The translations under genes and the position numbers were made by a program. The notes beneath the pieces are model-generated. The model was given only the letters and a program-made list of their open reading frames with translations, made no database searches and was not told the DNA's origin. Shown here one piece after another: positions 4,470-64,000 of a stretch of DNA of 64,000 nucleotides (its first letter is position 1; each line of letters starts with the position of its first letter). The stretch is from Sinomonas gamaensis (lineage in GTDB: Bacteria > Actinomycetota > Actinomycetes > Actinomycetales > Micrococcaceae): positions 388,151-452,150 of the forward strand of contig NZ_SSCL01000001.1 in NCBI RefSeq assembly GCF_005876955.1. Reading direction: 5' to 3'.

Positions 4470-6008
4470 GTGGGGCGCCACGTTCCGCGCGTTCTGAGCA
4501 TCGCCGGCTCTGATCCCTCGGGCGGAGCCGGCATTCAGGCGGACCTCAAGAGCATTGCCGCGATGGGCGGCTACGGGATGGCCGCGATCACGGCCCTCAC
4601 GGCGCAGAACACGCGCGGCCTGACGGGCGTCCACACGCCTCCCGCCGACTTCCTGAGGGCTCAGCTCGACGCGGTGTCGTCGGACATCATCGTCGACGCT
4701 GTCAAGATCGGCATGCTCGCCGACGCCGAGGTGATTCGCGTCGTGGGGGACTGGCTTGAGAGCGCGCGGCCCGCCGTCGTTGTCCTCGATCCGGTGATGG
4801 TCGCCACGAGCGGCGATCGACTCCTCGCGGACGACGCCGCCACGGCCCTCCGCGGGCTCCTCGCCAAGGCGGACCTCGTCACACCGAACCTCCCTGAGCT
4901 CGGCGTCCTCCTCGACGAACCGGTTGCGCTGACGTGGGCCGAGGCGCTGGCGCAGGCCGAGCGGCTGTCGGAGCGGATCGGCGCGGTGGTTCTGGTCAAG
5001 GGCGGTCACCTGAGCGGGCTCGACTGCCCTGATGCGCTCGTCGACGCGGCAGCCGACGAGGATGCGCGGATCGTCGAGGTGCCTGGGCCCCGCATTGAGA
5101 CGCGGAACACGCATGGCACGGGGTGTTCCCTGTCGTCGGCTATGGCCACGATGCAGGCGCGGACCGGTGACTGGGCCGCTTCCCTGAAGGTCGTGAAGGA
5201 GTGGCTCCTGGGCGCTCTGGCAGCCTCGGGCGAGCTCGAGGTCGGCGGTGGGCACGGACCGGTGCACCACTTCCACCACGCCGAGGGGTCCGTTCCGCTG
5301 GCGGACGGCGAATTCGCTGCCCGCTTATGGGACGCGACAGCAAAGATCCGCGCCGAAATCGACGCATTGCCGTTCGTGGCGCAGCTCGACGCCGGCTCAC
5401 TGCCCGAGGCGCAGTTCGCGTACTACCTTGCGCAGGATGCCCAGTATCTCAACGGGTTCTCGAGGGCGCTGGCTCGGGCGAGTGCCCTGGCGCCCACGGA
5501 GGAGGAGCAGACATTCTGGGCCAACTCGGCCCAAGTGTGCCTCGTGGTCGAGGCGGAACTCCATCGCACGTGGCTCGCGCAGCATCCGCTGCCGCCAGGG
5601 GAGGCGCTCAGACAGGGTCCCGTCACCAAGGCCTATCTGGACCATCTGCTCGCCGCTTCCGCGATGGGCAGCTACGCGGTGCTCGCGGCCGCCGTTCTTC
5701 CGTGCTACTGGATCTACGCTGTGGTGGGCGAGGAGCTGCACAAGCGGCATCTCCAGCGGACCTCGCCGGGCGCAGGGGGTCTCTCAGGCGGCGCAGAAGA
5801 TCCGTCAGGCACAGAACATCCATATGGAGCGTGGATCGAGACCTACGCCGACGAGGCCTTCGCGGAGTCCACGCGGCGTGCAATCAGCTTCGCTGACCGG
5901 GCCGGTCGCGCAGCCTCTGCGGCCGACAGGGAGGCGATGATGGAGGCCTTCGTGCAGTCCACGGTGTACGAGCGCGACTTCTTCGACGCGCCGTCGAAGT
6001 ACGCCTGA
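4470..6008 (+). CDS. thiD: ThiD-TenA fusion: HMP kinase/HMP-P kinase joined to aminopyrimidine aminohydrolase
   Basis: A 512-residue bifunctional thiamine protein. Residues 1-265 are a ThiD ribokinase-fold kinase (SIAGSDPSGGAGIQADLK near the N-terminus, NTHGTGCSLSSA as the anion hole), which phosphorylates hydroxymethylpyrimidine twice. Residues 285-512 are TenA: AYYLAQDAQYL carries the substrate aspartate, PCYWIY the nucleophilic cysteine, and VYERDFFD the C-terminal glutamate region. TenA regenerates HMP from degraded thiamine, so the fusion feeds salvage product directly to the kinase. The start is the GTG at 4470, only 2 bases after the rne stop, which implies translational coupling with rne. 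No THI-box riboswitch is seen. Confidence 0.93.
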   Translation: MGRHVPRVLSIAGSDPSGGAGIQADLKSIAAMGGYGMAAITALTAQNTRGLTGVHTPPADFLRAQLDAVSSDIIVDAVKIGMLADAEVIRVVGDWLESARPAVVVLDPVMVATSGDRLLADDAATALRGLLAKADLVTPNLPELGVLLDEPVALTWAEALAQAERLSERIGAVVLVKGGHLSGLDCPDALVDAAADEDARIVEVPGPRIETRNTHGTGCSLSSAMATMQARTGDWAASLKVVKEWLLGALAASGELEVGGGHGPVHHFHHAEGSVPLADGEFAARLWDATAKIRAEIDALPFVAQLDAGSLPEAQFAYYLAQDAQYLNGFSRALARASALAPTEEEQTFWANSAQVCLVVEAELHRTWLAQHPLPPGEALRQGPVTKAYLDHLLAASAMGSYAVLAAAVLPCYWIYAVVGEELHKRHLQRTSPGAGGLSGGAEDPSGTEHPYGAWIETYADEAFAESTRRAISFADRAGRAASAADREAMMEAFVQSTVYERDFFDAPSKYA

Positions 6009-6267
6009 GACGGGGTTGCCTCAGAGGTGGGCTAAACTGGTAGAGCGTGCTTCCGGCAAGGCTCATTTGCGGCCGGATGGAGGAGTGACGTAGTCTAGAT
6101 CCTCGGTGCTGACGCCTACCACTGGGTTTTGCTCCCAGGGAATCCCCTCGCGGGCTCACGGCAAGAAGCACAGTCGAGTGTTGTCGTCACCGCTGCGAGG
6201 AGCAGCGGCGTCGAGAGCGCCGCGCGCAAGAGCTTTCAGTAATAACGTCGAGAGAAGTGAGTTCCCA
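6009..6267 (+). promoter_or_regulatory. Promoter region and 5' leader of rplU-rpmA
   Basis: A long gap before a ribosomal protein operon. A TAAACT hexamer at 6033-6038 fits an actinobacterial -10 element, though the -35 is weak. The leader holds two clean hairpins: CTGGG/CCCAG at 6122-6138, and a 7-bp stem CCGCTGC/GCAGCGG at 6190-6208 with the loop GAGGA. L21 leaders bind the protein product in some phyla, so feedback control is plausible but unproven here. Confidence 0.4.
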
Positions 6268-6579
6268 GTGGTGTACGCGATTGTCCGTGCAGGCGGCCGC
6301 CAGGAGAAGGTTTCCGTCGGAGACTTCGTGACCCTCAACCGCGTGGCCGGCGGTGCCGGCAGCACCATCGAGCTGCCCGCCCTCCTGCTGGTCGACGGTG
6401 AGAAGGTCACTTCGGATTCCACCGAGCTGGCCAAGGTCAAGGTCACAGCTGAGGTCCTCGAGGACCTCCGTGGCCCGAAGATCGTCATCCAGAAGTACAA
6501 GAACAAGACGGGCTACAAGAAGCGCCAGGGTCACCGTCAGGACCTGACGAAGGTCAAGATCACCGGCATTACTGCCTGA
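6268..6579 (+). CDS. rplU: 50S ribosomal protein L21
   Basis: A 103-residue protein with the L21 signature: an N-terminal [13 protein letters not shown] beta-barrel start and the C-terminal [13 protein letters not shown]-binding tail. It binds 23S rRNA with L20. I chose the GTG at 6268, giving [10 protein letters not shown]; the adjacent GTG at 6271 would remove one residue. A GAGAAG ribosome site lies upstream. The longer open frame back to 6106 covers the leader hairpins and is not protein-like. It is co-transcribed with rpmA, 53 bases downstream. Confidence 0.96.
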
Positions 6580-6632
6580 TCTCGGCTCCCGGTACTTCCC
6601 TAACCCAACAGATTCCAAGGTAGGCACAGCTT

Positions 6633-6887
6633 ATGGCACACAAGAAGGGCGCAAGCTCCACCCGCAACGGCCGCGACTCGAACGCTCAGCGCCTCGGCGT
6701 CAAGCGCTTCGGCGGCCAGACCGTGAACGCCGGCGAGATCCTCGTCCGCCAGCGCGGCACGCACTTCCACCCGGGCAACGGCGTGGGCCGTGGCAAGGAC
6801 GACACCCTGTTCGCCCTTGAGGCGGGCGCCGTGCAGTTTGGCACGCGTCGCGGCCGCCGCGTGGTGGACATCGTCGCCGCCCAGTAG
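6633..6887 (+). CDS. rpmA: 50S ribosomal protein L27
   Basis: An 84-residue protein starting [10 protein letters not shown], with the family core [19 protein letters not shown] and [16 protein letters not shown]. The N-terminus of L27 reaches the peptidyl transferase centre. Unlike Firmicutes versions, no cleaved N-terminal extension is present. It is the second gene of the rplU operon and is followed by a strong terminator. Confidence 0.97.
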
Positions 6888-6930
6888 TCTGGGTGGCTCG
6901 GATGTCCGAGCGCAGCTAGTTTTTTTCAGG

Positions 6931-6967
6931 GTGGAGCGGGCCAATCGGCCCGCTCCACTTGTTTTTT
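6931..6967 (+). terminator. Rho-independent terminator after rpmA
   Basis: A perfect 12-bp stem, GTGGAGCGGGCC at 6931-6942 with GGCCCGCTCCAC at 6947-6958, closes a 4-base loop and is followed by a T-rich tail to 6967. A run of seven T lies just before the stem, so it could also act on the other strand. It separates the ribosomal operon from obg. Confidence 0.93.
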
Positions 6968-7002
6968 AGAATCGGGGGTGACCCCGGCGTAAGGAGAATG
7001 GC

Positions 7003-8604
7003 GTGGCGAGCTTCGTCGACCGCGTAGTGCTGCACGTTTCTGGAGGCCACGGTGGCCACGGCTGCGTGTCGGTCAAGCGAGAGAAGTTCAAGCCTCTCGG
7101 GGGCCCGGATGGTGGGAACGGAGGCAACGGGGGAGACGTGGTCCTCCGGGTCTCGTCGCAGACCACCACCCTCCTCGACTATCACCACTCTCCGCATCGG
7201 GTTGCCCAGAACGGCGGACCCGGGATGGGCGACTGGCGCGCTGGGCACAGGGGCGAGACGCTCGTGCTGCCCGTGCCCGACGGCACGGTCGTGAAGTCCC
7301 GCGACGGCGAAGTCCTCGCGGATCTCGTCGGCGAGGGCGCAGAATTCGTTGCCGCGGCCGGAGGCCAAGGCGGATTGGGCAACGCAGCCCTCGCCACGGC
7401 CAAGCGCAAGGCGCCCGGCTTCGCCCTCCTCGGCATCGAGGGCGAAGAGCGGGACATCGTCCTCGAGCTCAAGTCGATCGCCGACGTGGCCCTCGTCGGG
7501 TTCCCCTCGGCCGGAAAGTCGAGTCTCATCGCGGCCATGTCCGCCGCGCGTCCGAAGATCGCCGACTACCCGTTCACCACTCTCGTCCCGAATCTTGGGG
7601 TCGTCCAGGCTGGCGATGTCCGTTTCACGATCGCTGACGTTCCCGGCCTCATCGAGGGCGCGAGCGAGGGTCGCGGCCTCGGCCATGACTTCCTCCGGCA
7701 CGTTGAGCGCTGCGCCGCGATCGTGCATGTCCTCGACTGCGGAACTCTGGAGTCGGACCGCAATCCGTTGGACGATCTGGACGTGATCGAGCGCGAGCTC
7801 GCGAAGTACAGCGTGGACATGAGCTTTGCCGGACCCGACGGCGAAGTCGTCCCGCTCAACGAGCGGCCGAGGCTCGTTGCCCTCAACAAGGTGGACCTGC
7901 CCGATGGCAAGGCGATGGCGGATCTGGTTCGTCCGGAGCTCGAGGGCCGCGGCTACCGGGTCTTCGAGGTGTCGGCGACGAGCCACGAGGGGCTGCGGTC
8001 CCTCGGCTTCGCCATGGCCGAGATCGTCCAGAAAGCCCGCGCCGAGGTCAAGACCGCGCCGCCCAAGGTCGCCCCTGCCGTCCTCCGCCCCCGGGCGGTC
8101 AACGAGAAGGGGTTCGTGATCCGGCGGGAGGAGCGCAACCTCGAGCCGCTCTTCCGGATCATCGGTGAGAAGCCGGAGCGCTGGGTCAAGCAGACCGACT
8201 TCACGAATGACGAGGCCGTGGGGTACCTCAGTGACCGGCTCAACCGGCTTGGGGTCGAGGACGAGCTGTTCAAGATCGGAGCGAACGCGGGCGACACGGT
8301 GGTGATCGGCGAGGACGACGCCGTCGTCTTCGACTGGGAGCCCACGATGTCTGCGGGCGCCGAGCTCCTCGCAGGGCCGCGCGGCACCGACCTCCGGCTC
8401 TCGGACTGGTCGCGTCCGACGCGCGCCCAGAAGCGCGAGGACTACGAGGACCGGAAGGCTGCCAGGGCAGCGGCCCGCGACGAACTCGAGGCGGAGCGGC
8501 GCGCAGGCATCTGGACCGAATCGAGCCGCCGGAAGGAGTGGGCGCCGGACCTGACGTCCGAGGAAGAGGCGGAGGGTGATGACGATTACGAGTCCGAGCG
8601 CTGA
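7003..8604 (+). CDS. obg: GTPase Obg/CgtA
   Basis: A 533-residue Obg GTPase involved in 50S maturation and stress signalling. The N-terminal glycine-rich Obg fold ([14 protein letters not shown]) covers about residues 1-160. The G domain shows G1 [10 protein letters not shown]3 [10 protein letters not shown] and G4 NKVDL. A C-terminal OCT domain follows, then a charged tail. The start is the GTG at 7003, with AAGGAG six bases upstream. It overlaps proB by 26 bases, and the order L21-L27-Obg-ProB-ProA is typical of Arthrobacter relatives. Confidence 0.96.
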
Positions 8605-14553: not shown

Positions 14554-14626
14554 GGGGCTGTGGCGCAGCTGGTAGCGCACCTGCATGGCATGCAGGGGGT
14601 CAGGGGTTCGAGTCCCCTCAGCTCCA
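14554..14626 (+). tRNA. tRNA-Ala (anticodon GGC)
   Basis: All four arms fold. The acceptor GGGGCTG pairs with CAGCTCC including one G-U, the D arm is GCGC/GCGC, the anticodon stem CCTGC/GCAGG encloses ATGGCAT with anticodon GGC, and the T arm AGGGG/CCCCT carries TTCGAGT. The discriminator is A. The CCA end is not encoded. Confidence 0.97.
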
Positions 14627-14627
14627 C

Positions 14628-14700
14628 GGGGGTATGGCGCAGTTGGTAGCGCGTCTGCATGGCATGCAGAAGGTCAGGGGTTCGAATCCCCTTACCTCCA
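14628..14700 (+). tRNA. tRNA-Ala (anticodon GGC), second copy
   Basis: A second complete cloverleaf begins one base after the first. The acceptor GGGGGTA pairs with TACCTCC, the anticodon loop is again ATGGCAT (GGC), and the T loop is TTCGAAT. It differs from its neighbour in the acceptor stem, the variable region and several stem pairs, so it is a diverged duplicate rather than an assembly copy. Confidence 0.96.
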
Positions 14701-14706
14701 CCCGTA

Positions 14707-53237: not shown

Positions 53238-53861
53238 CTAGCGGGCCGCGACGGCGAGGAAGCGGATGGGGAGTTCGAGGAGGCGAAGGGGGCCGTGGGG
53301 TCCTTCGCCTTCGAAGACGAGGGAGTCGCCGGGGGCGAGCTCGTATTCGTAGGAGCCGTGCCCGTAGACCATGCGGCCTTCGAGCATGTAGATGAACTCG
53401 GTTCCGCTGTGCTGGAACAGCGGGAAGACGTCGGACGCGCTCGTGAGCGTCACGAGGCTCGGCTCGATCGGGTTCTCCCGCCGCTGCAGGGTGCCGAGCG
53501 AGCGGTATTCGTGGCCGTGGCGGGTGCCGGTGCGAACCGTGACGCTGCCTTCCCCGGCCTTGGTGAAGGTGGCTTCGCGTTCGGTGTCTGCCCCCTTGAA
53601 GAGCGCTGTGACCGGCACGTCGAGAGCCTGGGCTAGCCGCTGGACCGTGGTGAGGGAGCACGAGGTGCTGGCGGACTCGATCTTCGAGACCATGGCCTTG
53701 GAGAGCCCCGTCCGGCTCGCGAGCTCGGCCGCCGAGATCCCGGCTTCGCTCCGATACCGTTTGACCTGCCCTGCGATGACGAGCTCGAGGGAGCCGGGAG
53801 CGCTAGGGGTGCCCTCGGCTTCCTCGGTCGTCATGGTGCGAGTATAGGCAGCGGCGGTCAT
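53238..53861 (-). CDS. XRE family regulator with C-terminal cupin domain (PuuR-like)
   Basis: A 207-residue two-domain regulator. The helix-turn-helix is VKRYRSEAGISAAELASRTGLSKAMVSKIESAST, and a cupin sensor follows with HSGTEFIYMLEGRMVYGHGSYEYELAPGDSLVFEGEGPHG. This architecture is that of PuuR, which governs gamma-glutamylated polyamine breakdown. It is the last gene of the operon and overlaps the amidohydrolase gene by 4 bases (ATGA); an internal ATG at 53834 lacks a ribosome site. It likely senses an amine or gamma-glutamyl amine. Confidence 0.9.
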   Translation of the reverse strand: MTAAAYTRTMTTEEAEGTPSAPGSLELVIAGQVKRYRSEAGISAAELASRTGLSKAMVSKIESASTSCSLTTVQRLAQALDVPVTALFKGADTEREATFTKAGEGSVTVRTGTRHGHEYRSLGTLQRRENPIEPSLVTLTSASDVFPLFQHSGTEFIYMLEGRMVYGHGSYEYELAPGDSLVFEGEGPHGPLRLLELPIRFLAVAAR

Positions 53862-55141
53862 ACGCGGCGCCCTGCGAGGCCCTCGAGGACCCCGGCGAGG
53901 GCGAGCGCGCCCGCCTCGGCGTCGTCGTCCTCCACGTGCTCTTCCGGAGAATGGGAGACGCCGGTGGGATTGCGGACGAAGAGCATGGCGGTCGGCAGCG
54001 CCGCGGCGAGGACGCCCGCGTCATGGCCCGCTCCCGTGGGGAGCACGGGGGCGTCGGGCAGCAGTTCCCCGAGTCGGTGCCTGAGGGCGGGATCGAAGTG
54101 GACGGTGGGGCTGAGCGATTCCTCCCGCAGCTCGAGGGAGCAGCCTTCGACGGCGGCGGCTCGCCTGGCGTCGGCATGGATGCGCTCGACGACGGCGGCC
54201 GTCACGGCGTCGTCGGCGTGCCGGACGTCGAGCCAGAGGCTGACCGAGGACGCGATCACGTTCGTACCGCCCGGCACGGGGACGATGCGCCCGACGGTCG
54301 CGCGCGCGCCCGAGTGCCGGAGGGCAGCCTCGCGGGCAGCTTGGACGATCGCCGCCGCGGCGACGAGCGGGTCACGCCGGTCTTCCATGAGCGTGGTCCC
54401 GGCGTGGTTGCCCTGCCCGGTGATGGTGATCCTCCATCGTCCGTGGCCCAGGATGGTCGAGCCGACCGCGACGGGCTGGCCGAGGTCGATGAGTCCGCGG
54501 CCCTGTTCGACATGGAGTTCGACGAAGGAGCCGATCCTGCCCACGGCTTCTGGGTCCGGGCCGAGGAAGCGGGGGTCGAGGCCTGCTTTCGCTGTGACGT
54601 CGGCGAAGGTGTTCCCCTCGGGGTCGCGCAGCGTGCGGGCCCTGTCCGGGTCGATCAGGCCGGTGAGCAGCCGGGAGCCGAGGCACGCGACCCCGAAGCG
54701 GGAGCCCTCCTCCTCGGGGAAGACGGCGAGGGCGAGGGGCTTGCTGGGTGTCAGCCCGCGTTCGCGCAGGCGGTCGATGGCGATGAGCGCCGAGGCGACG
54801 CCGAGCGGGCCGTCGAAGGCGCCCCCTCCGGGGACGGAATCCAGGTGGCTGCCGGTGACGACGGCGTCCCGCCGATCGGCGCCTGGTGCGTCCCACCAGG
54901 CCCAGAGGATGCCATTCCGGTCGCTCTCGACGTCCAGACCGCGCCGTGACGCCTGGTCGATGAACCACTCGCGGAGCTCGTGCTCGGCCACCGAGTAGAC
55001 GGGCCTGCTGTAGCCTCCCCGGGCGTCGTCCCTGCCGACGTCCGCGATCTCGGCCATGAGCCCCGCGACGCTCGCGCCCGCCGGGCCCGCCCGGCCCCCC
55101 GCCGTCGTCGGCACTGTGCCAGTCGACGGTCCCGCGCTCAC
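53858..55141 (-). CDS. M20 family amidohydrolase (allantoate/N-carbamoyl amino acid hydrolase type)
   Basis: A 427-residue dimetal hydrolase of the hydantoinase/carbamoylase branch. Metal ligands are seen in TGSHLDSVPGGGAFDG, FPEEEGSRFG, SFVELHVEQGRGL and GVSHSPEEHV; the dimerisation lid includes ITGQGNHAGTTLM. Family members release ammonia or an amine from ureido, carbamoyl or amide substrates. The GTG at 55141 overlaps the oxidase stop (GTGA), so it belongs firmly to the operon. A role in opening an N-substituted amide fits the neighbours, but the substrate is not determined. Confidence 0.9.
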   Translation of the reverse strand: MSAGPSTGTVPTTAGGRAGPAGASVAGLMAEIADVGRDDARGGYSRPVYSVAEHELREWFIDQASRRGLDVESDRNGILWAWWDAPGADRRDAVVTGSHLDSVPGGGAFDGPLGVASALIAIDRLRERGLTPSKPLALAVFPEEEGSRFGVACLGSRLLTGLIDPDRARTLRDPEGNTFADVTAKAGLDPRFLGPDPEAVGRIGSFVELHVEQGRGLIDLGQPVAVGSTILGHGRWRITITGQGNHAGTTLMEDRRDPLVAAAAIVQAAREAALRHSGARATVGRIVPVPGGTNVIASSVSLWLDVRHADDAVTAAVVERIHADARRAAAVEGCSLELREESLSPTVHFDPALRHRLGELLPDAPVLPTGAGHDAGVLAAALPTAMLFVRNPTGVSHSPEEHVEDDDAEAGALALAGVLEGLAGRRV

Positions 55142-56289
55142 GCACGCCTCCCGGCACCGACGAGCGAGGGCCGGAACCGCAGCGGAATCTCGCGAGCTCC
55201 GGTGGCGAGGTCTGCCGCCAGCTCGCCCAGCAGCGGGGCGAACTTCGCACCGTGGCCACTGCAGGGGGAGAGGATGGTGATGCCGTGCGCGGTGTCGATG
55301 ATGAACTCCTCGTCGGGGGTGTTGGTGAACAGGCAGGTGGTCTCGGCGTAGGGCTCGGGGAGGAGGCCCGGGACGTACTGCTTGACGTAGTCGACGATCC
55401 GCTCACGGTGCGCGGGGTCGATGAGCCCGTCCTGGGCGGAGGCGTCGGCGATCGCCCTGCCGCCGTTGAACTCGGCCACCTTCTGCCCGCGGAAGTCGGC
55501 GTCCCGGCCTCCGGGGAGTCCATAGGTCTGGATGCCTGGCCGCTTGTGGATGAATGTCGGCCAGAAGGTCCCGGGGTCGGGCTGTTCGCGGTAGGGGAAG
55601 TGGAAGGCAGTCTCCTGCATGACCGTGAGAGCCGGGAGCGAGGAAAGGAACGCCGAGGGAAGGTCGAGGCCGCCAAGGAGTTGGGGCAGCCAGCCGCCGG
55701 CGGCGACAATCACATTCCCGGCCAGCAGCTCTTCTCCGCGCTCGCTCGTGAGGAGGTAGCCGGCACCGGCTCGGCTGGCGGTGGCCAGTGCCCAGTCTTC
55801 GTAGAGGCGTGCGCCGTGTGCGGAGGCGGCCCGCACCATCGCGTGAACGCTCTCGTGCGCGTCGATCACCCCCGCGCCGGAATGCCACAGCACCTCGGTG
55901 TCGAAGGCGAACTGCGGCCAGCGCGACCTGGCTTCCGCTGGGGAGAGCAGCTCGTGGGCGACCCCCACGGTCGCGAGGACTTCGGCCAGCTCGCCGGGTT
56001 TGCGGATCTGGCCGTGGTCCACACAGCCGGTGGGCGTGATGAGCTGGAAGCCCGCCAGGGCGCTGAGCTCCTTCCAGCCGGCGAGGGATTCCTTCACGAG
56101 GGCGGCGTAGCCGGTGTCTGGGTAGGCGTAGCGGAAGATGCGCGCCGAGCCGTGGGAGCTTCCGGCATGGTTCGCGGGCTCGGAGCGTTCGACGACGGCG
56201 ACCTGATGGCCGCGCTGGGCCAGACGCCACGCCGTGGCGGCGCCGGCAAGGCCGGCGCCGACCACGACATAGTCGAAGGAGTCGGGCAT
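55138..56289 (-). CDS. Monomeric sarcosine oxidase-like flavoprotein
   Basis: A 383-residue FAD-dependent N-methyl amino acid oxidase of the MSOX/MTOX group. The FAD site is DYVVVGAGLAGAATAWRLAQRG, followed by SSHGSARIFRYAYPD. The cysteine in TTCLFTNTPDEEFIID aligns with the residue that binds FAD covalently in MSOX, and SPCSGHGAKFAP is the active-site loop. Such enzymes oxidise N-methyl amino acids with O2 to the amino acid, formaldehyde and peroxide. It starts at the ATG at 56289, sharing a base with the stop of the FMN subunit gene (TGATG). Confidence 0.9.
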   Translation of the reverse strand: MPDSFDYVVVGAGLAGAATAWRLAQRGHQVAVVERSEPANHAGSSHGSARIFRYAYPDTGYAALVKESLAGWKELSALAGFQLITPTGCVDHGQIRKPGELAEVLATVGVAHELLSPAEARSRWPQFAFDTEVLWHSGAGVIDAHESVHAMVRAASAHGARLYEDWALATASRAGAGYLLTSERGEELLAGNVIVAAGGWLPQLLGGLDLPSAFLSSLPALTVMQETAFHFPYREQPDPGTFWPTFIHKRPGIQTYGLPGGRDADFRGQKVAEFNGGRAIADASAQDGLIDPAHRERIVDYVKQYVPGLLPEPYAETTCLFTNTPDEEFIIDTAHGITILSPCSGHGAKFAPLLGELAADLATGAREIPLRFRPSLVGAGRRA

Positions 56290-57665
56290 CAGAGCCCCGT
56301 TCCCGTCGCGCCCGGGATCCATGAGGTCCCGGCGAGCGGCACTCGGGCCATCGCGGCGGATTCGATGGTCAGGGCGACGAGGTCCTCGGGCTCGAGGTTG
56401 TGGAGGTGGGCCTTGCCGCATGCGCGGGCGATGGTCTGGGCCTCCATGGTCAGTACGCGCAGGTAATTCGCGATCCGCCGGCCGCCCACGACGGGGTCGA
56501 GCCTGGCGGAGAGCTCAGGATCCTGGGTGCTGATGCCGGCGGGATCGCGGCCGTCCTGGAAGTCGTCGTAGTAGCCGGCCGCGGAGCCGAGCTTGGCGTA
56601 CTCGGCAGCGTAGCGGGGGCTGTTGTCGCCGAGGGCGATGAGCGCGGCGGTGCCGATGGCCACTGCGTCGGCGCCGAGGGCCATGGCCTTAGCGACGTCT
56701 GCGCCGGTGCGGATTCCGCCCGAGACGATGAGCTGGACCTTGCGGTGCATCCCGAGCTCCTGCAGGGCCTGGACGGCCTGCGGGATGGCGGCGAGGGTAG
56801 GGATGCCGACGTTCTCGATGAACACCTGTTGGGTGGCGGCGGTCCCGCCCTGCATCCCGTCCAGGATCACGACATCCGCCCCCGACTTCACGGCGAGGGC
56901 CGTGTCGTAGTACGGGCGGGAGGCCCCGATCTTGACGTAGATCGGCTTCTCCCAGTCGGTGATCTCGCGAAGTTCGGCGATCTTGATCTCGAGGTCGTCC
57001 GGGCCCGTCCAGTCGGGGTGGCGGCAGGCCGAGCGCTGGTCGATGCCGATGGGAAGGGTGCGCATCTCGGCCACTCGCTCGGTGATCTTCTGGCCCAGCA
57101 GCATCCCGCCGCCGCCGGGCTTGGCGCCCTGGCCGAGCACGACCTCGATCGCGTCGGCCTTGCGCAGGTCGTCCGGGTTCATGCCGTAGCGGGACGGAAG
57201 GTACTGGTAGACGAGGTGCTTGGACTGGCCGCGCTCCTCGGGCGTCATACCGCCGTCGCCCGTTGTCGTGGAGGTGCCCACGGCGCTCGCGCCGCGGCCC
57301 AGCGCCTCCTTCGCGTTGGCCGACAGCGCGCCGAAGCTCATGCCGGCGATGGTGACGGGGATGTCGAGGCGGAGCGGCTTGGACGCGTAGCGGTCGCCGA
57401 GGACGATGTCGGTGCCGCACTTCTCACGGTAGCCCTCCAGGGGGTAGCGGGACATGGAGGCGCCGAGGAAGAGCAGGTCGTCGAAGTGAGGGACCTTGCG
57501 CTTGGCGCCCCAGCCCCGGATGTCGTAGATGCCGGTCTCGGCAGCGCGCTGGATGTCGGCTATCGTGGCGCGGTCGAAGGTCGCGGACTCGCGCAGGCCG
57601 AGCTCGGCCAGGGCGGGCGCGGGGAGGGCAGGTGCGACGGTCTGGTCTGGTGCGGTGAGGGTCAT
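56289..57665 (-). CDS. FMN-binding glutamate synthase-like subunit (GlxD/MgsC type)
   Basis: A 458-residue protein equal to the FMN domain of glutamate synthase. IAGMSFGALSANAKEALGRGA and GQGAKPGGGGMLLGQKI start the barrel, and DGMQGGTAATQQVFIENVG with VSGGIRTGADVAKAMALGADAVAIGTAAL bind FMN. Where glutamate synthases have CHxxxCPVGIATQDP with 3Fe-4S ligands, this one reads YYDDFQDGRDPAGISTQDP, so all the cluster cysteines are missing. With the two preceding genes it forms a split glutamate synthase-like enzyme, comparable to N-methylglutamate synthase. Confidence 0.9.
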   Translation of the reverse strand: MTLTAPDQTVAPALPAPALAELGLRESATFDRATIADIQRAAETGIYDIRGWGAKRKVPHFDDLLFLGASMSRYPLEGYREKCGTDIVLGDRYASKPLRLDIPVTIAGMSFGALSANAKEALGRGASAVGTSTTTGDGGMTPEERGQSKHLVYQYLPSRYGMNPDDLRKADAIEVVLGQGAKPGGGGMLLGQKITERVAEMRTLPIGIDQRSACRHPDWTGPDDLEIKIAELREITDWEKPIYVKIGASRPYYDTALAVKSGADVVILDGMQGGTAATQQVFIENVGIPTLAAIPQAVQALQELGMHRKVQLIVSGGIRTGADVAKAMALGADAVAIGTAALIALGDNSPRYAAEYAKLGSAAGYYDDFQDGRDPAGISTQDPELSARLDPVVGGRRIANYLRVLTMEAQTIARACGKAHLHNLEPEDLVALTIESAAMARVPLAGTSWIPGATGTGL

Positions 57666-57674
57666 GGCCGTCTC

Positions 57675-58391
57675 CTAGTAGGCGCTGGAGTTGTCGACGT
57701 GGAAGTTGTAGAGGGTGCGGGCGGAGCCATAGCGGGTGAAGTCGACTGGGTCGTCGTCGCGGCCGGCGGCCCGCAGGAGTTCGCCGAGTTCGGCCAGGTG
57801 CTCCTCGCGCATCTCCTTGACGACGCAGTCGGCGCCGAGGGAGGCGACCTTGCCCCTGACGTATAGGCGGGCCTCGTAGATGGAATCGCCGAGGGCCTCT
57901 CCGGCGTCGCCGCAGACCACGAGCCGCCCGGCTTGGGCCATGAAGGCCGACATGTGCCCGATGTTCCCGCCGACGACGATGTCGATGCCCTTCATCGAGA
58001 TGCCGCAGCGGGCGGAGGCATTCCCGTCGATGACGAGCAGCCCGCCGTGCGCCGTGGCGCCTGCGGACTGCGAGGCGTCGCCGGTGACGTGCACCGTGCC
58101 CGACATCATGTTCTCGGCGACGCCGACCCCGGCGTTGCCGTTGACGGTGATGCGCCCGCCCTGGTTCATTCCGGCCGCGTAGTAGCCGACGTGGCCGTTG
58201 ATTTCGATCTCGACTTCGGAGTTCACGCCGACGGCGATGCTGTGCTTCCCGCCGGGATGGTCGACGGCGAAAGCGTCGCCGTCCGCGGCGTGGTGGAGGG
58301 TCCTGTTGAGCTCGCGGACGCCGCCGAGCTTGAGGTCGAAGGCCCGGGGAGCGGTCCGCTGGGATTCGCGGCTCTCGAGAGTTGTTGTCAT
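57675..58391 (-). CDS. GXGXG-domain glutamate synthase-like subunit (GlxC/MgsB type)
   Basis: A 238-residue right-handed beta-helix protein matching the C-terminal GXGXG domain of glutamate synthase. Repeats are visible in GHVGYYAAGMNQGGRITVNGNAGVGVAENMMSGTVHVTGDA and in GNIGHMSAFMAQAGRLVVCGDAGEALGDS. This domain is structural and links the ammonia channel. The ATG at 58391 has AAAGGA. It lies 26 bases after the amidotransferase gene and 9 before the FMN subunit gene. Confidence 0.9.
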   Translation of the reverse strand: MTTTLESRESQRTAPRAFDLKLGGVRELNRTLHHAADGDAFAVDHPGGKHSIAVGVNSEVEIEINGHVGYYAAGMNQGGRITVNGNAGVGVAENMMSGTVHVTGDASQSAGATAHGGLLVIDGNASARCGISMKGIDIVVGGNIGHMSAFMAQAGRLVVCGDAGEALGDSIYEARLYVRGKVASLGADCVVKEMREEHLAELGELLRAAGRDDDPVDFTRYGSARTLYNFHVDNSSAY

Positions 58392-58417
58392 GGGAGTTCC
58401 TTTGGGACGTGGGGTGT

Positions 58418-59326
58418 TCAGAGCGACCAGGTGTAGACCTTGCCGGGCTCAGGCTCGAAGATGCGGGCGTTCTCGATGCCCGGCAGCTCGGCCAGGGCGC
58501 GGAACTCCGAGGCCATGGCGACCCAGTCCTCGGTCTCGGCGATGATGGCCGGCTTGCACGCGATGGGGTCACGGACCACAGCCATGCTGTCCGCGGTGGT
58601 CACGACGAGTGTGTAGAACCCATCGAGGGTTTCTCCGAGGTTCACGAGTGCGGTCTCTAGGTCGTCGCCCTGCTCGAGGCGGTGTGCCACGTAGCGGGCG
58701 CCGACCTCGGTGTCGTTCTCGGAGTCGAAGTGGACGCCGAGGCGCTGCAGCTCGCGGCGGACGGAGGCATGGTTCGAGAACGAGCCGTTGTGGACGAGAC
58801 ACAGGTCGTCGGCGACGGAGAACGGGTGCGAGCCGCCAGCTGTGACTGCTGACTCGGTGGCCATGCGCGTGTGGGTCACGGCCTGCGTGCCGCGCATCGC
58901 CTTGACACCGTGCCGCTCGGCAACCTCGACCGGGTGTCCGACACTCTTCATCACCGCCACGCGCTCGCCGCGACCGGCGACGACGACCTCGGGGTAGGCC
59001 TTGGCGATCATCTTCGCGAGGTCCTCGGCTGGGACTTCGGCCGAGATGAACGTCGTGTCGCCGACCACCTTGATCTCTGTACCGCCGCTCTCGGGGAGGA
59101 GTTCGCCCAGGAGGGCGTCGACGTCGTCCGCGCGGATCCCGAGGTCGCCTCCGAGGAGGCTCAGGGTGGAGAGGCCCTCTGCGGTGAGGGCGGGGTTGTC
59201 GTAGACGGCGAGGCCTGCGGAGTCGGGTCCCCGGTCGACGATCTCGCAGAGCATGGTGGTGAGCAGGGAACCCATGCTTGAGCGCAGTTCTGGGTTGCGC
59301 AGCTGCAGGGCGGCAATTCCGCACAT
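58418..59326 (-). CDS. Class II glutamine amidotransferase-like subunit (GlxB/MgsA type)
   Basis: A 302-residue Ntn hydrolase. Its N-terminus MCGIAAL provides Cys2 as the nucleophile after Met removal. THTRMATESAV and LVHNGSFSNHASVRREL are the glutamine-site motifs. In glutamate synthase-like complexes this subunit frees ammonia, or an amine from a gamma-glutamyl amide, and passes it to the FMN subunit. It follows the ligase gene by 36 bases. Confidence 0.91.
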   Translation of the reverse strand: MCGIAALQLRNPELRSSMGSLLTTMLCEIVDRGPDSAGLAVYDNPALTAEGLSTLSLLGGDLGIRADDVDALLGELLPESGGTEIKVVGDTTFISAEVPAEDLAKMIAKAYPEVVVAGRGERVAVMKSVGHPVEVAERHGVKAMRGTQAVTHTRMATESAVTAGGSHPFSVADDLCLVHNGSFSNHASVRRELQRLGVHFDSENDTEVGARYVAHRLEQGDDLETALVNLGETLDGFYTLVVTTADSMAVVRDPIACKPAIIAETEDWVAMASEFRALAELPGIENARIFEPEPGKVYTWSL

Positions 59327-59362
59327 AGTGATTCCTCTTCTTTCGGTGGCCGTGGCAGGCGA

Positions 59363-60760
59363 TCAAACAGCGGTGAGGTAGCGGCTGACTTCCCAGGACG
59401 TGACGTGGCTGTGCCATTCGAGGAACTCGGCCTCTTTGGCGGCCGCGTAGTAGCTGCCGACCTCGGCCGAGCCGCTGAGCGCGGTGAGCATGACCGGGTC
59501 CTGGCGGAGTTCCTGGACCGCGTGGAGCAGCGTGGGCGGGAGTGCCTTGGCGTCGAGCCCACGCTCGCCCGGGGCGCAGGGGGCACCGGGGTCGAGCCCG
59601 CGGTCCATGCCGTCCAGGCCCGCGGTGACCGCGGCGGCGATCGCGAGATAGGGGTTCGCCGAGCCGTCGCCGGAGCGCAGCTCGATGCGGTGCGGGTCGG
59701 GGACCCTGATCATGTGGGTCCTGTCGTTGCCGCCGTAGGAGGCCTTGTTCGTCGACCAGGTCGCCCCGGACTCGGTCGCTGTGGCGCCCGTGCGCTTGTA
59801 CGAATTGACCGTGGGGGCGAGGAACACCTGGAGGGCGGGGGCATGGTCGAGGATCCCCGCCACGAACGCGTAGGCCGTCTCGGAGAAGCCGAGCCCATGG
59901 CGATCGTCCCAGTCCGCCGGGAAGAGCTCCTCACCGCTCTCGTTCCAGAGCGAGAGGTGGAAGTGGAGTCCGTTTCCTGTGCGGTTCGTGAACGGCTTGG
60001 GCATGAACGTGGCCACCATGCCCCGCTGTTCCGCGAGGACGTTGAGCAGGTAGCGCAGGGTGACCACGCGGTCGGCGGTCACGAGCGCGTCGTCGTAGTC
60101 GAAGTTCTGCTCGAACTGTCCCGCGCCGTCCTCGTGGTCGTTCGCATAGTTGCCCCACCCGAGGGCGTTCATGGTCTCGGAGACCTCGGTGAGGTGCTCG
60201 TACATGCGGGTGACGCCTCGGGCGTCGTAGCACGGGTGCGCTCCATCGTCCTTCGAATCTGCCGGGGCGAGTGAGCCGTCGTCGCCCTTCGTGACGAGGA
60301 AGTACTCCACCTCCGCGCCAGCCTTCGCCGTCATCCCCTTTTCCGCGAGACGGGCGAGGGCATTCTTGAGGATGACGCGCGGGGCGTAGGGCCAGGGCTT
60401 GCCGTCGACGTACGGATCGCAGTGCACGAGCGCCAGACCGGATCGGACCGCGTCCAGAGGTGTGAAGCTCGAGGCGTCCGGAATCGCGCAGAGGTCCCCG
60501 TCCTGGGGCTTCTGGCCGACGAGCCCGGCGGCGTAGCCTGCGAAGCCGAGCTTGCCGGCCTCGAGTTCGGCCAGTGCAGAGACTGGGACAAGCTTGGCGC
60601 AGGGCTTGCCGTTCATGTCGACAAAGGTGGCGAGGATGAACTTCGTGCCGTGGGCCTCCGCCAACTCGGCGAGCGGGCTCTGGGCCGCCTGAAGGTCGAG
60701 AGCGGGGGGATCTGAGGCGAGGGCTGTCATCGAGGATCCAATCTGCTCATTCGTTCTCAT
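59363..60760 (-). CDS. Type III glutamine synthetase-like ligase (GlnT / gamma-glutamylmethylamide synthetase type)
   Basis: A 465-residue ATP-dependent glutamate-amine ligase. AGAEVEYFLV and NDHEDGAGQFEQNFDYDDALVTADR carry metal ligands, GNGLHFHLSLW and NSYKR bind glutamate, and HRIELRSGDGSANPYLAIAAAV is the C-terminal motif. The DHEDGAGQFE stretch is typical of GlnT and of gamma-glutamylmethylamide synthetase rather than of GlnA. The ATG at 60760 has AGGGAA five bases upstream; ATG at 60730 is an alternative. First gene of the minus-strand operon, divergent from amt. Confidence 0.9.
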   Translation of the reverse strand: MRTNEQIGSSMTALASDPPALDLQAAQSPLAELAEAHGTKFILATFVDMNGKPCAKLVPVSALAELEAGKLGFAGYAAGLVGQKPQDGDLCAIPDASSFTPLDAVRSGLALVHCDPYVDGKPWPYAPRVILKNALARLAEKGMTAKAGAEVEYFLVTKGDDGSLAPADSKDDGAHPCYDARGVTRMYEHLTEVSETMNALGWGNYANDHEDGAGQFEQNFDYDDALVTADRVVTLRYLLNVLAEQRGMVATFMPKPFTNRTGNGLHFHLSLWNESGEELFPADWDDRHGLGFSETAYAFVAGILDHAPALQVFLAPTVNSYKRTGATATESGATWSTNKASYGGNDRTHMIRVPDPHRIELRSGDGSANPYLAIAAAVTAGLDGMDRGLDPGAPCAPGERGLDAKALPPTLLHAVQELRQDPVMLTALSGSAEVGSYYAAAKEAEFLEWHSHVTSWEVSRYLTAV

Positions 60761-60971
60761 TCGTTCCCTGGTAGGAAACTATGTTGAATCCAGTTACGCA
60801 TACAGTTCGTTTCGACCGCGTGCAGGGAATGTAAATGCTGCGTTGCCGCAACCTCTCTGCAGGTCGGCCATCTGGCGGGGGAGGGGAATTTAACGGGCCG
60901 GAAACCCGTGCGGGTTGAACGTGGGTCATCTTTGTTTCATCCCATTCCAACCTTTCCCGGATAGGAGTCCC
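60761..60971. promoter_or_regulatory. Divergent control region between the ligase operon and amt
   Basis: A 211-base gap that must drive both units. GTTAC at 60793-60797 and several GAAAC/GTTTC-like pentamers nearby (60774-60815) recall the actinobacterial GlnR box (GTnAC-n6-GAAAC), but the spacing is not canonical. An XRE-cupin site would also be expected here. No definite -35/-10 pair was fixed. Confidence 0.3.
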
Positions 60972-62261
60972 ATGGACACCGGACACACCGCGTGGATTCT
61001 GGCCGCCTCGGCCCTGGTCTGCATGCTCATCCCAGCGCTCGCTCTCTTCTACGGGGGCATGGTCGGCTCCCGGCGCATCCTGAATATGATGCTGATGTGC
61101 TTCGGCGGCGTGAGCGTCGTCGCCGTCCTCTGGGCACTGTTCGGCTACTCGGCCGTCTTCGGGAGCTCGGTCGGCGGCCTCGGGCTCATTGGAGACGTCA
61201 CGCAATACCTCGGTCTCGGCCAGGTCCTGCCCGAGGATCCGAAGGCTCCCATACCGCCCGCGGTCTTCGCGGCCTTCCAGCTCTTCTTCGCCGGAATCAC
61301 GACGGCGATCATCGCCGGGGCGGCGGCGGGCCGCATGAAGTTCGGCGCGTGGATGCTTTTCGCCGGGATCTGGTCGACTGTCGTCTACCTCCCGGTCGCC
61401 CACTGGGTCTTCGCCGCGAGCTCGGCGGATGGCAGCGTCGTCGGGGGCTGGATCCTCAACGGCATCAAGGCCGTCGACTTCGCCGGCGGGACCGCCGTGC
61501 ACATCAACTCCGGCGTCGCGGCCCTCGCCCTCTCCCTGGTCCTCGGCCGCAGCGCCGGCTGGCCGAAGAGCGAGCATGTTCGGCCCCACAGCCGTCCGCT
61601 CGTCCTGGTCGGGGCTGGCCTCCTGTGGGCCGGCTGGTTCGGGTTCAACGCCGGCTCCGCTCTCACGGCCGGCAACAGCGCCGCCGTCGTCTTCCTCAAC
61701 ACCGCCATCGCCGGCGCCGCCGGCCTCCTCGGCTGGATCGCCCTCGAGCGGATCCGGCTCGGCAGCTCCAGCAGCATCGGCGCCGCCTCGGGGCTCGTCG
61801 CAGGCCTCGTTGCCATCACTCCTGCGTGCGGCGCCGTCAACCCCGTCGGTGCCATCGCGATCGGCGCCATCGCTGGAGCCGTCTGCTCGCTCGCCATCGA
61901 ATGGAAGTACCGGCTGGGCTTCGACGACTCGCTCGACGTCGTCGGCGTCCACCTCGTCGGCGGCATCATCGGCACGCTCCTGATCGGGCTGTTCGCCACC
62001 GACTCCGCCCCCAACAAGGTCAGCGGGCTCTTCTACGGCGGCGGACTCCAGCTGCTCGGCGTCCAGGCCCTCGCCGTCGCCGCCGTGCTCGTGTATTCCT
62101 TCGCCCTCACGTGGGTGATCGCAGTCGTCGTCAAGCGCACCGTAGGCCTCCGGATCGACCCGGCCGGCGAGCTTCGCGGGATCGACCTTGCCGCCCACGC
62201 GGAGGAGGCCTACCTGGTAGACGAAGAGCCCGTGGAACTGGGCGCCCCCACCCTCAGGTGA
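60972..62261 (+). CDS. amt: Ammonium/methylammonium transporter
   Basis: A 429-residue Amt channel with eleven spans. ALALFYGGMVGSRRILNMMLMCF is the opening signature, the twin-histidine region is seen in DFAGGTAVHINSG (first His) and VVGVHLVGGIIGTLL (second His), and WFGFNAGSALTAGNSA precedes span 7. It could carry ammonium or methylammonium. The ATG at 60972 follows AGGAG. The usual partner glnK is not adjacent; instead a HutD-like gene overlaps by 4 bases. The divergent amine-utilisation operon points to methylammonium or recovered ammonium as cargo. Confidence 0.94.
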   Translation: MDTGHTAWILAASALVCMLIPALALFYGGMVGSRRILNMMLMCFGGVSVVAVLWALFGYSAVFGSSVGGLGLIGDVTQYLGLGQVLPEDPKAPIPPAVFAAFQLFFAGITTAIIAGAAAGRMKFGAWMLFAGIWSTVVYLPVAHWVFAASSADGSVVGGWILNGIKAVDFAGGTAVHINSGVAALALSLVLGRSAGWPKSEHVRPHSRPLVLVGAGLLWAGWFGFNAGSALTAGNSAAVVFLNTAIAGAAGLLGWIALERIRLGSSSSIGAASGLVAGLVAITPACGAVNPVGAIAIGAIAGAVCSLAIEWKYRLGFDDSLDVVGVHLVGGIIGTLLIGLFATDSAPNKVSGLFYGGGLQLLGVQALAVAAVLVYSFALTWVIAVVVKRTVGLRIDPAGELRGIDLAAHAEEAYLVDEEPVELGAPTLR

Positions 62262-62809
62262 ACGGCGTGATCATCCGGTTCTCCACTCTCCATGCTGCGT
62301 TCTGGCGCAATGGAGGAGGCGAAACCGTCGAGATAGCCTCCGAAACAGGAGGAGACCCGGATGGGGGCTGGAGATGGCGAATCAGTCTCGCAACGGTTGC
62401 ACGCCCTGGGCCCTTTTCTGCCTTCCCTGGGATGCACCGTATTCTCACCGTGGTCGATGGCGCAGAACTCGATCTCAGGATCGGCAACAAGGCTCATAGG
62501 GCACGTCGCCATGAGCCGCTGGCCTTCGACGGCGCCGCCCCAGCCGCTGCTTCGCTCCATGGCTCCGGTCCAGCCCGAGCGCTCAATGTGATCTTCGACC
62601 CCGTAGCCGTTCGGGCACACGTTGAAGTCGGGCGGCTGGATGGGCGGACTTCGTTGGCGACCGAAGATGTTGCTGTCGCCCTGGGCGGCGACCTCAGCGT
62701 CGGCGGCTTTGGGCTCGCGCCCTTCGACACTGTCCTGAGTGGTTCTCCGCCCCCTACCGTGCACGGTCGAGGCCTTCTGGCTCGGATCACTGTGGGACCT
62801 CGAGTGTGA
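62258..62809 (+). CDS. HutD/Ves family protein
   Basis: A 183-residue cupin-like protein. AAFWRNGGGETVEIASE, WRWRISLATVARPGPFSAFPGMHRILTVVDGAELDL and GSGPARALNVIFD follow the HutD (Ves) family. Members occur in nitrogen-compound operons and may control or protect them, but no activity is agreed. The GTG at 62258 overlaps the amt stop (GTGA); a second GTG at 62267 is possible. A much longer frame running back through amt is only a shadow. Coupling to amt suggests joint expression. Confidence 0.82.
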   Translation: MNGVIIRFSTLHAAFWRNGGGETVEIASETGGDPDGGWRWRISLATVARPGPFSAFPGMHRILTVVDGAELDLRIGNKAHRARRHEPLAFDGAAPAAASLHGSGPARALNVIFDPVAVRAHVEVGRLDGRTSLATEDVAVALGGDLSVGGFGLAPFDTVLSGSPPPTVHGRGLLARITVGPRV

Positions 62810-63083: not shown

Positions 63084-64000
63084 TCAGCCGTTGATGATCT
63101 GGGGCTGGCCGAGGTGTTTCAGTCCTTCGGCGCCGAATTCGAGGCCGTAGCCGGACTGCTTGGCGCCGCCGAAGGGGACGCGGGGGTCGACGGCGCCGTG
63201 GGCGTTGATCCACACGGTGCCGGCCTCGATCCGGGCGGCGACCTCGCGGGCCTTCTCGGCATCGGCGGACCATACCGAGGCGCCGAGGCCGACCTCGAGG
63301 GCGTTGGCCATCTGAACGGCCTCGTCGACGGTGGAGTACTTGATGATCGGCAGGGCGGGGCCGAACTGCTCCTGGGCGACGAGGGGGTTCTCGTTGTCGA
63401 TGTCCGCGACGAGGGTGGTGGGGTAGAAGAACCCGGGCTGGGTCTCGTCGGGGTTGCCGCCCAGGAGGACGCGCGCGCCGGAGGCCTTGGCGGCCTCGAC
63501 CAAACCGGCGACGATCTCGTACTGCGCCTTGTTCTGCAGCGGGCCGAGCACGTTCTGCTCCTCCAGGCCCACTCCCATGGGCACCTGGGCGGCGTACTCG
63601 CTGAGGGCCTCGCACACCGACTCGTAGATGTCGGCGTGGACGTAGAGGCGCTTGAGGGCGGCGCAGGTCTGGCCGGTGTTGATGAACGCGCCCCAGAACA
63701 GGCCCTCGGCGATGGCCTGGGGGTCGGCGTCGGGCAGGACGATGCCGGCGTCGTTGCCGCCGAGCTCGAGGGTCAGGCGCTTCACCGTGTCGGCGGAGGA
63801 GCGGATGATGGCCTTGCCGGTCGCTGTGGAACCGGTGAACATGACCTTCCCGATCGCGGGGTGGGTGGTGATCGCGGCGCCGACCTCGCGATCGCCCGAG
63901 ACCACGGAGACCAAGCCCTCCGGCAGCGCACCGTTGATGACCCGCACCAGGGCCAGGACCGAGAGCGGGGTGTACTCGCTGGGCTTGACCACGACGGCGT
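63084..64000 (-). CDS. Aldehyde dehydrogenase family protein (partial, C-terminal two thirds)
   Basis: The frame runs off the right edge, so only the C-terminal 304 or so residues are seen. VKPSEYTPLSVL is the cofactor-binding strand, TLELGGND has the general-base glutamate, GQTCAALKRLY the catalytic cysteine, and EQFGPALPIIKY and GGAKQSGYGLEFG are later signatures. It oxidises an aldehyde with NAD(P). Its position beside the amine cluster might link it to aldehydes released there, but a 274-base gap and opposite orientation to amt make this only a possibility. Confidence 0.93.
   Translation of the reverse strand, partial: AVVVKPSEYTPLSVLALVRVINGALPEGLVSVVSGDREVGAAITTHPAIGKVMFTGSTATGKAIIRSSADTVKRLTLELGGNDAGIVLPDADPQAIAEGLFWGAFINTGQTCAALKRLYVHADIYESVCEALSEYAAQVPMGVGLEEQNVLGPLQNKAQYEIVAGLVEAAKASGARVLLGGNPDETQPGFFYPTTLVADIDNENPLVAQEQFGPALPIIKYSTVDEAVQMANALEVGLGASVWSADAEKAREVAARIEAGTVWINAHGAVDPRVPFGGAKQSGYGLEFGAEGLKHLGQPQIING

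Follow-up and report, generated by a model that had tools for sequence, protein, structure and literature searches.

Methylamine is a common nitrogen source in soil and in the sea, and the glutamate route for its use has been described with a four-subunit dehydrogenase. In this N-methylglutamate pathway, known from Methyloversatilis, Methylobacterium and marine bacteria, the genes concerned are gmaS, mgsABC and mgdABCD. This article examines a locus of Sinomonas gamaensis that shares the GmaS-type ligase and the synthase subunits GlxBCD/MgsABC with that pathway; it lies in a 64,000-nucleotide stretch of contig NZ_SSCL01000001.1 (positions 388,151 to 452,150 of the forward strand), referred to below as the window. 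MgdABCD is absent from the operon, which is why it is filed as a variant of the pathway; a single-chain oxidase, an M20 amidohydrolase of the type found in histidine-utilisation (hut) operons, amt, a HutD-family gene and an XRE-cupin regulator are found instead. In the portions of the literature searched, no description of a variant with a single-chain oxidase was found. Taken as a whole, the locus is probably best explained, on sequence grounds, as an actinobacterial form of the N-methylglutamate pathway for methylamine, used mainly for nitrogen.

Several plasmids offer points of comparison. Those of Rhizobium etli (L134) and Thioclava (L133) carry the same ligase and synthase genes together with a helix-turn-helix regulator, as does the window. 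Near their glnT-glxBCD genes lies a heterotetrameric SoxBDAG (with purU in R. etli), whereas the window has one chain of 383 residues. In Acinetobacter, a sox-alpha-like gene is found near glnT-glxBCD; no sox gene was seen in the stretch around these genes on a Methylobacterium plasmid.

Single-chain oxidases in glxB-carrying genomes

The window operon consists of seven minus-strand genes in one run, in which the first three junctions are gaps of 36, 26 and 9 bases and the last three are overlaps of 1, 4 and 4 bases; amt and the HutD-family gene are divergent on the plus strand. The original prediction had described this layout correctly. The run begins with glnT/gmaS (59363-60760, alternative start 60730), for a gamma-glutamylmethylamide synthetase (GMAS)-type ligase. 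It scores 573.7 bits against TIGR03105 (type III glutamate-ammonia ligase; cut-off 469.6), and among solved proteins it is closest to 7cql, a gamma-glutamylmethylamide synthetase (378 bits), and 9qur, named 'glutamate-methylamine ligase' (322 bits). Mapped according to the available part of a study of GmaS residue roles (PMC7948447), 16 of 17 residues are retained, including K30, A48, Y147, D177, E186, N188, W300 and R312. The sole change, Gln175 to Ala, is shared by 89 of 93 glnT rows from the fetched loci; these rows show partial overlap and cannot be counted as independent. At the eight positions just listed, the glutamine synthetase (GS) paralogue from the same genome (L002) has V, D, F, H, E, D, E and R; the Asp50 and Glu-flap typical of GS are absent from the window ligase, which has Ala48 for the Asp and Trp300 for the flap Glu. 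Judged by these residues, the ligase is of the GMAS type rather than a glutamine synthetase.

Next come glxB (mgsA-like; 58418-59326), a class II glutamine amidotransferase subunit with an MCGI start, glxC (mgsB-like; 57675-58391), a GXGXG subunit matching PF01493, and glxD (mgsC-like; 56289-57665), an FMN-binding glutamate-synthase-type subunit (PF01645, 4.1e-90). GlxD is 82% identical to its counterpart on a plasmid of Methylobacterium sp. DM1. By analogy with the known pathway, GlxBCD would act as an N-methylglutamate synthase; there was no biochemically proven MgsABC among the proteins compared. At the genomic level, then, the predicted GMAS/GlnT-like ligase and GlxBCD/MgsABC-like subunits are both borne out. 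The next gene (55138-56289; start MPDSF) encodes the single-chain FAD oxidase, a DAO-family protein of 383 residues related to monomeric sarcosine oxidase (MSOX).

On a tree of such oxidases, two clades are far apart, with long branches flagged: clade A, to which the window belongs, groups with solved MSOX, and clade B falls on the SoxB side. Truncated L040, L126 (two broken frames), L044 and duplicate copies were left out of this tree. The distance between the clades indicates that two separate single-chain families occupy one place in the operon.

The distribution of these families was assessed with the glxB protein in 394 Actinomycetes genomes, matches of 171 bits or more being counted as strong. 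In each genome, just a subset of first-look candidates (5 or 4, for instance) is scored by the search, and absences are meant at that sensitivity. Strong glxB matches occur in 44 genomes, the window's included, and the other 43 are 45-65% identical to the window protein. In these 43 regions, the oxidase is of clade A in 7 (in L091 it lies upstream, together with an M20 gene), of clade B in 25 and of the SoxBDA type in 5, and there is none in 6. Each of these six genomes carries a clade B gene at another place (52-54% identity; the clade B reference is the L130 oxidase), whereas in the five Sox-type genomes the top clade B match is only 32% identical. By genome, the 44 split into 8 with clade A (window included), 31 with clade B and 5 with glx-adjacent SoxBDA, groups that are disjoint at the cuts used; clade A is assigned here by score (at least 252 bits), and the tree does not cover G102, G200 and G330. 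A single-chain oxidase is thus present in 39 of the 44 actinobacterial glxB carriers. Conversely, 31 of 35 genomes with clade B have glxB (Fisher p 2e-31, with related genomes treated as independent); by genus, a hand-compiled table gives 13/17 against 7/121 (p 2.5e-10).

SoxB at E <= 1e-60 was found in nine of the 43 other glxB genomes, namely the five with glx-adjacent genes, which at 487-519 bits fall short of the sarcosine cut-off (529), and four others, which exceed it. None was found at this threshold in the remaining 34, so that MgdABCD is unlikely to be the next enzyme there. The replacement of MgdABCD by a single-chain FAD oxidase is therefore well supported genomically, and in this sense the predicted substitution of an MSOX-like enzyme for the dehydrogenase stands.

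It could still be argued that the window's own SoxBDAG is the real N-methylglutamate dehydrogenase, and that the operon oxidase does something else. The genome, searched as 4.32 Mb in 35 contigs, does hold one SoxB above cut-off, in a soxBDAG set (G000:C32), and homologues of mgd elsewhere in the genome had been named beforehand as a finding that would speak against the idea. This set, however, lies between glyA-like and L-serine-dehydratase-like (sdaA-like) genes, with a folD-like gene downstream (all named by eye), a layout that marks an operon of the sarcosine-breakdown type, and its SoxB reaches 625 bits against the sarcosine oxidase beta cut-off of 529. Together with the 34 glxB genomes in which no SoxB was found, this makes the SoxBDAG explanation very improbable.

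The same question arises in Mycobacterium, where McTaggart et al. (2015) reported gma-mgsABC in methylotrophic strains without intact methylamine oxidase genes. This cluster, too, is actinobacterial and proposed for methylamine, and the part of the paper available (PMC5023230) names mgdA-D clusters that do not adjoin gma-mgsABC, a point in favour of a distant dehydrogenase; the accessible part of a SAR11 paper likewise assigns soxBDAG (PMC3160333). On the plasmid of Ca. Mycobacterium methanotrophicum (L130) and in the f11 genomes near it on the tree, by contrast, a clade B oxidase directly follows glxD. The nesting of L130 among the f11 genomes suggests that these are mycobacterial kin, and the arrangement suggests that the clade B gene following mgsC is the true partner in Mycobacterium.

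The first four steps of the proposed route can be put forward with considerable confidence. Amt would import methylammonium; the GmaS-type ligase would use ATP to join methylamine to glutamate, giving gamma-glutamylmethylamide; GlxBCD would convert this to N-methyl-L-glutamate; and the MSOX-related single-chain oxidase, not MgdABCD, would oxidise the N-methyl group with O2.

Structure and residues of the oxidase

An AF2 model of the window oxidase (pLDDT 88.5) has MSOX as its best fold match in the PDB (TM about 0.85), with NikD a close second. The protein shares this fold with MSOX, N-methyltryptophan oxidase (MTOX) and NikD, as well as Cys315, Lys265, Arg49/52 and Lys348 (MSOX numbering), which are conserved in 47 of 47 clade A rows and in the window; L005 stands in for the window in these counts, and the window was read separately. 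The roles of R49, R52, K265, C315 (covalent flavin) and K348 are presumably those they have in MSOX. The differences are equally clear. The window oxidase is about 25-33% identical to the solved MSOX-type relatives, and it falls below both family cut-offs (181.3 against 479.65 for monomeric sarcosine oxidase, TIGR01377; 225.3 against 257 for MTOX, NF008425). Near the conserved residues in sequence, F256L, F342C and F347A are found. In the window's part of clade A, H269 is replaced by Phe or Tyr and Y317 by Phe; the window protein has CSGHGAKF in place of FSGHGFKF.

The H269/Y317 change was considered as a marker of linkage to M20 and rejected: F317 with Y/F269 is present in 30/30 M20-linked clade A rows but also in 11/17 unlinked ones (L103 included), so that it follows the tree and proves nothing about linkage. 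The window protein shares 95% identity with the oxidase of Sinomonas albida. Its substrate may be one other than sarcosine; the protein is proposed to be a covalently flavinylated N-methylglutamate oxidase that would use O2.

The M20 amidohydrolase and the fate of the methyl group

The M20 gene (53858-55141, minus strand) scores 631.8 bits against NF006770, the NCBIfam model named 'allantoate amidohydrolase' (cut-off 372), and 199.6 against AllC TIGR03176 (cut-off 597.75). The family (E <= 1e-90) occurs in 186 of the 394 genomes, which rules it out as a partner specific to oxidase modules. Seven near relatives were fetched first: six of them (L159-L164) belong to histidine operons, and L158 does not. 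In L158, a window-type M20 gene (5888-7389) is preceded by only an 84-residue oxidase match, an oxidase remnant; the module has decayed. A further 40 regions (L165-L204) were hand-picked for spread from the 186-genome list, leaving out known oxidase-linked places; 39 of them are beside hut genes, with HutF in 37, although in one (L181) the evidence is a weak partial match to HutU. The hut-operon enzymes are 50-67% identical in the fetched regions. Allantoate amidohydrolase was accordingly rejected as the function of the M20 enzyme, given the AllC score far below cut-off and the hut neighbours of 39 of the 40 sampled homologues.

In L164, curated models identify the run HutH-HutU-M20-HutF-HutI, in which the M20 gene (6626-7837) is the sole other gene and exceeds the cut-off of the same equivalog, NF006770, as the window's. 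HutF is a formiminoglutamate deiminase and HutG a formylglutamate amidohydrolase, with glutamate and formate as end products, according to the available part of PMC4447125. From the presence of HutF and other hut genes around M20, and from the logic of the HutG product, the M20 enzyme fills the HutG place in hut operons, and the L164 'allantoate amidohydrolase' is probably a misnamed N-formylglutamate deformylase. The window enzyme, which differs from its actinobacterial hut relatives in adjoining an amine oxidase in a methylamine-type operon, is proposed by the same pathway logic to be an N-formyl-L-glutamate deformylase. It had been thought to have no place in the known route and to extend it to N-acyl or carbamoyl amines; that suggestion gives way to the deformylase place.

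A tree of M20 proteins, from which 11 near-duplicate Micrococcaceae loci were thinned out, needs at least 3 changes between hut-linked and oxidase-linked positions. One oxidase-linked group holds the window and partners of both clade A and clade B oxidases, with one hut row (L159) inside it on weak support; the other (L098, L152-L156; 100/100) has clade B oxidases only and lies amid hut rows. If hut linkage, the majority state on both sides of the tree, is the older one, M20 has been recruited to oxidases at least twice. HutD genes were found by tblastn in 10 oxidase-M20 loci, window included, and Pfam confirmed 8; six weaker matches (40-56 bits; L089, L091, L098, L107, L153, L157), in other frames at neighbouring gene ends, were set aside. 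The window's own genome has HutU and HutH above cut-off and no HutF (best 90.7 against 362), so that no histidine-derived N-formylglutamate is evident as a substrate for the window enzyme. Given a hut-type M20 without HutF, we infer that N-formylglutamate is all or part of what the oxidase step produces.

In operons with M20, the oxidase would thus probably continue, or act on an N-hydroxymethyl form, to give N-formyl-L-glutamate, which the HutG-type M20 would split into formate and glutamate. The chances that N-formylglutamate is an intermediate or by-product are judged about even. The carbon would then be released as formate and not as toxic formaldehyde. The fullest version of the idea is a pathway that largely avoids free formaldehyde, with single-chain oxidases of two unrelated clades, four-electron formation of N-formylglutamate, a hut deformylase recruited at least twice and, in relatives without glx, a reductase of the ornithine-cyclodeaminase (OCD) family as front end; the odds on all of this holding together fall slightly short of even.

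Alternatively, the oxidase may give only formaldehyde and glutamate, with M20 repairing stray N-formylglutamate or serving an unrelated N-acyl amino acid. A one-carbon product is suggested by L053 (clade A) and L102 (clade B), where an S-(hydroxymethyl)mycothiol dehydrogenase gene directly follows that of the oxidase. The window's genome has formaldehyde-handling genes, with HxlA (hexulose-phosphate synthase) and the mycothiol formaldehyde dehydrogenase above cut-off. Moreover, only 12 of the 39 single-chain glxB genomes have M20 beside the oxidase. Such a scheme explains less well why a hut-type M20 adjoins two unrelated oxidases in two separate tree groups, why HutD recurs and why the window's M20 is kept in a genome with no HutF above cut-off. 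Rather doubtful as it is, it is compatible with the first four steps, and its odds overlap with theirs.

The one-carbon genes also bear on the substrate. GMAS accepts ethylamine, as in theanine synthesis (PMC7677707, in the part available), and a neighbouring gene (from 63084 on) encodes an aldehyde dehydrogenase, so that the operon might use another primary amine, such as ethylamine, and release a higher aldehyde from an N-alkylglutamate. The linked S-(hydroxymethyl)mycothiol dehydrogenase and formyl-glutamate-type hydrolase point instead to a one-carbon group, as does the formate-tetrahydrofolate ligase gene within about 5 kb of the oxidase in six Brevibacterium clade A loci (L026, L029, L031, L032, L034, L043), which have no glx or M20 nearby. 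A substrate other than methylamine is therefore considered unlikely.

Conservation of the whole gene set was followed in 40 loci fetched with the oxidase, in which gene-neighbour clusters, which contain antisense shadow open reading frames, were never relied on alone. All seven operon genes and amt occur together in 15, and this recurrence indicates that the grouping is more than chance. L037 lacks only glnT, and L017 has only a glxD fragment. Oxidase and M20 occur without glnT-glxBCD in 11 loci, and the oxidase occurs without either in 12, including the spurious L044 (a 34-residue match) and L040 and L041, which are cut by contig ends.

A number of observations weigh against the methylamine pathway proposed here, or against parts of it. 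Besides the soxBDAG set in the window's genome, glnT-glxBCD is missing from 22 of the 39 real loci of this fetch (L041 being cut off upstream), and 12 of 350 genomes without strong glxB still have a clade A- or clade B-like gene. Eleven of these 12 were fetched (8 A-like, 3 B-like): two, L141 and L143, have an OCD-oxidase-M20-amt arrangement, and glx, OCD and M20 were not found, bar single weak matches, around 6/8 A-like and 3/3 B-like genes. Of the glxB genomes, just 3 of the 8 with clade A and 9 of the 31 with clade B have M20 next to the oxidase; one more clade B genome has a fragment of it. The operons L053 and L102, with formaldehyde dehydrogenase, both lack M20; a plain formaldehyde route must then exist too, and at least some of these oxidases probably just release formaldehyde. 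Four-electron oxidation of N-methyl to N-formyl by an MSOX-type fold is not documented in the parts of the literature consulted, and, with scores below both MSOX-type cut-offs, the substrate of the oxidase cannot be read from its family.

The 11 loci with oxidase and M20 but no adjacent glnT-glxBCD, together with five clade B pairs (L152-L156) of the same kind, could mean that oxidase and M20 form a separate module for the breakdown of N-formyl or N-carbamoyl amino acids and merely lie beside glnT-glxBCD. The genomes of all five clade B pairs, however, have glxB elsewhere, and 6/7 early-branching clade A rows are glx-linked. By tblastn, an OCD-family gene is present in 10 of the 11 loci, where it may, as a matter of speculation, supply N-alkylglutamate. 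A separate module is accordingly thought improbable, and a methylamine pathway that includes the oxidase is preferred.

These glx-less modules, found in Microbacterium, Agromyces, Pseudoclavibacter and Glutamicibacter, combine the oxidase-M20 pair with the OCD-family gene, LysR and mostly amt, PII or HutD; in L007 the OCD-family gene exceeds the cut-off of NF004848. In L023 (8822-13705), L030, L033, L036, L141 and L143, the OCD-family gene runs together with genes for a clade A oxidase, M20 and Amt; LysR is divergent, and several of these loci also have PII and/or HutD. Speculatively, the OCD-family protein could be an imine reductase acting on methylamine and 2-oxoglutarate, a stand-in for glnT-glxBCD. 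The model's name, 'tyramine oxidase subunit B', was not found as a term in the literature searched. Genes like NF004848 also occur with RidA and an FAD oxidoreductase on proteobacterial plasmids (L135, L136, L137, L138); in L137 (Sphingobium xenophagum), this triad is inside a nicotine-breakdown cluster (ndpB, ndpC). On a Streptomyces cadmiisoli plasmid (L054, 6694-9062), the gene of a clade A oxidase overlaps one for a Glu/Leu/Phe/Val dehydrogenase, another possible maker of N-alkylglutamate.

Accessory genes and wider meaning

The last gene of the operon (53238-53861, minus strand) encodes the XRE-cupin transcriptional regulator (PF01381 and PF07883). It had been called PuuR-like, and its XRE plus cupin_2 architecture agrees with this loosely; the PuuR model does not (NF007408, 36.9 bits against a cut-off of 211). 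On the plus strand, amt (60915-62261, ATG at 60972) is assigned as an ammonium/methylammonium transporter gene from 39% identity to the annotated L132 transporter and from its recurrence beside the operon. The HutD-family gene (62258-62809; PF05962, 1.6e-32), also predicted earlier and now seconded by this match, overlaps its end. Amt would bring in methylammonium, while HutD and the XRE-cupin protein may be accessory or regulatory.

Candidate operator or promoter sites lie in the amt/glnT intergenic region (60775-60938), which contains two similar copies of a GAAAC...GTTGAA...GTTTC element, at 60775-60813 and 60901-60938. The glnT-side copy is inside a block visible across 12 aligned relatives; a script found no perfect inverted repeats of at least 7 bases in the spacer. 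Just past the HutD gene, the aldehyde dehydrogenase gene mentioned above occupies 63084-64000 on the minus strand; it is complete in L086 (13084-14574). Elsewhere in the window, two tRNA-Ala genes, both with anticodon ggc, are directly adjacent at 14554-14702.

If the proposed pathway is right, the common actinobacterial form of the N-methylglutamate pathway uses simple oxidases, and published assignments of non-adjacent sox clusters as 'mgdA-D' in actinobacteria would merit re-examination. The deformylase would illustrate that the methyl group can be passed on as formate without free formaldehyde, and genes annotated 'allantoate amidohydrolase' and 'FAD-dependent oxidoreductase' would gain a function.

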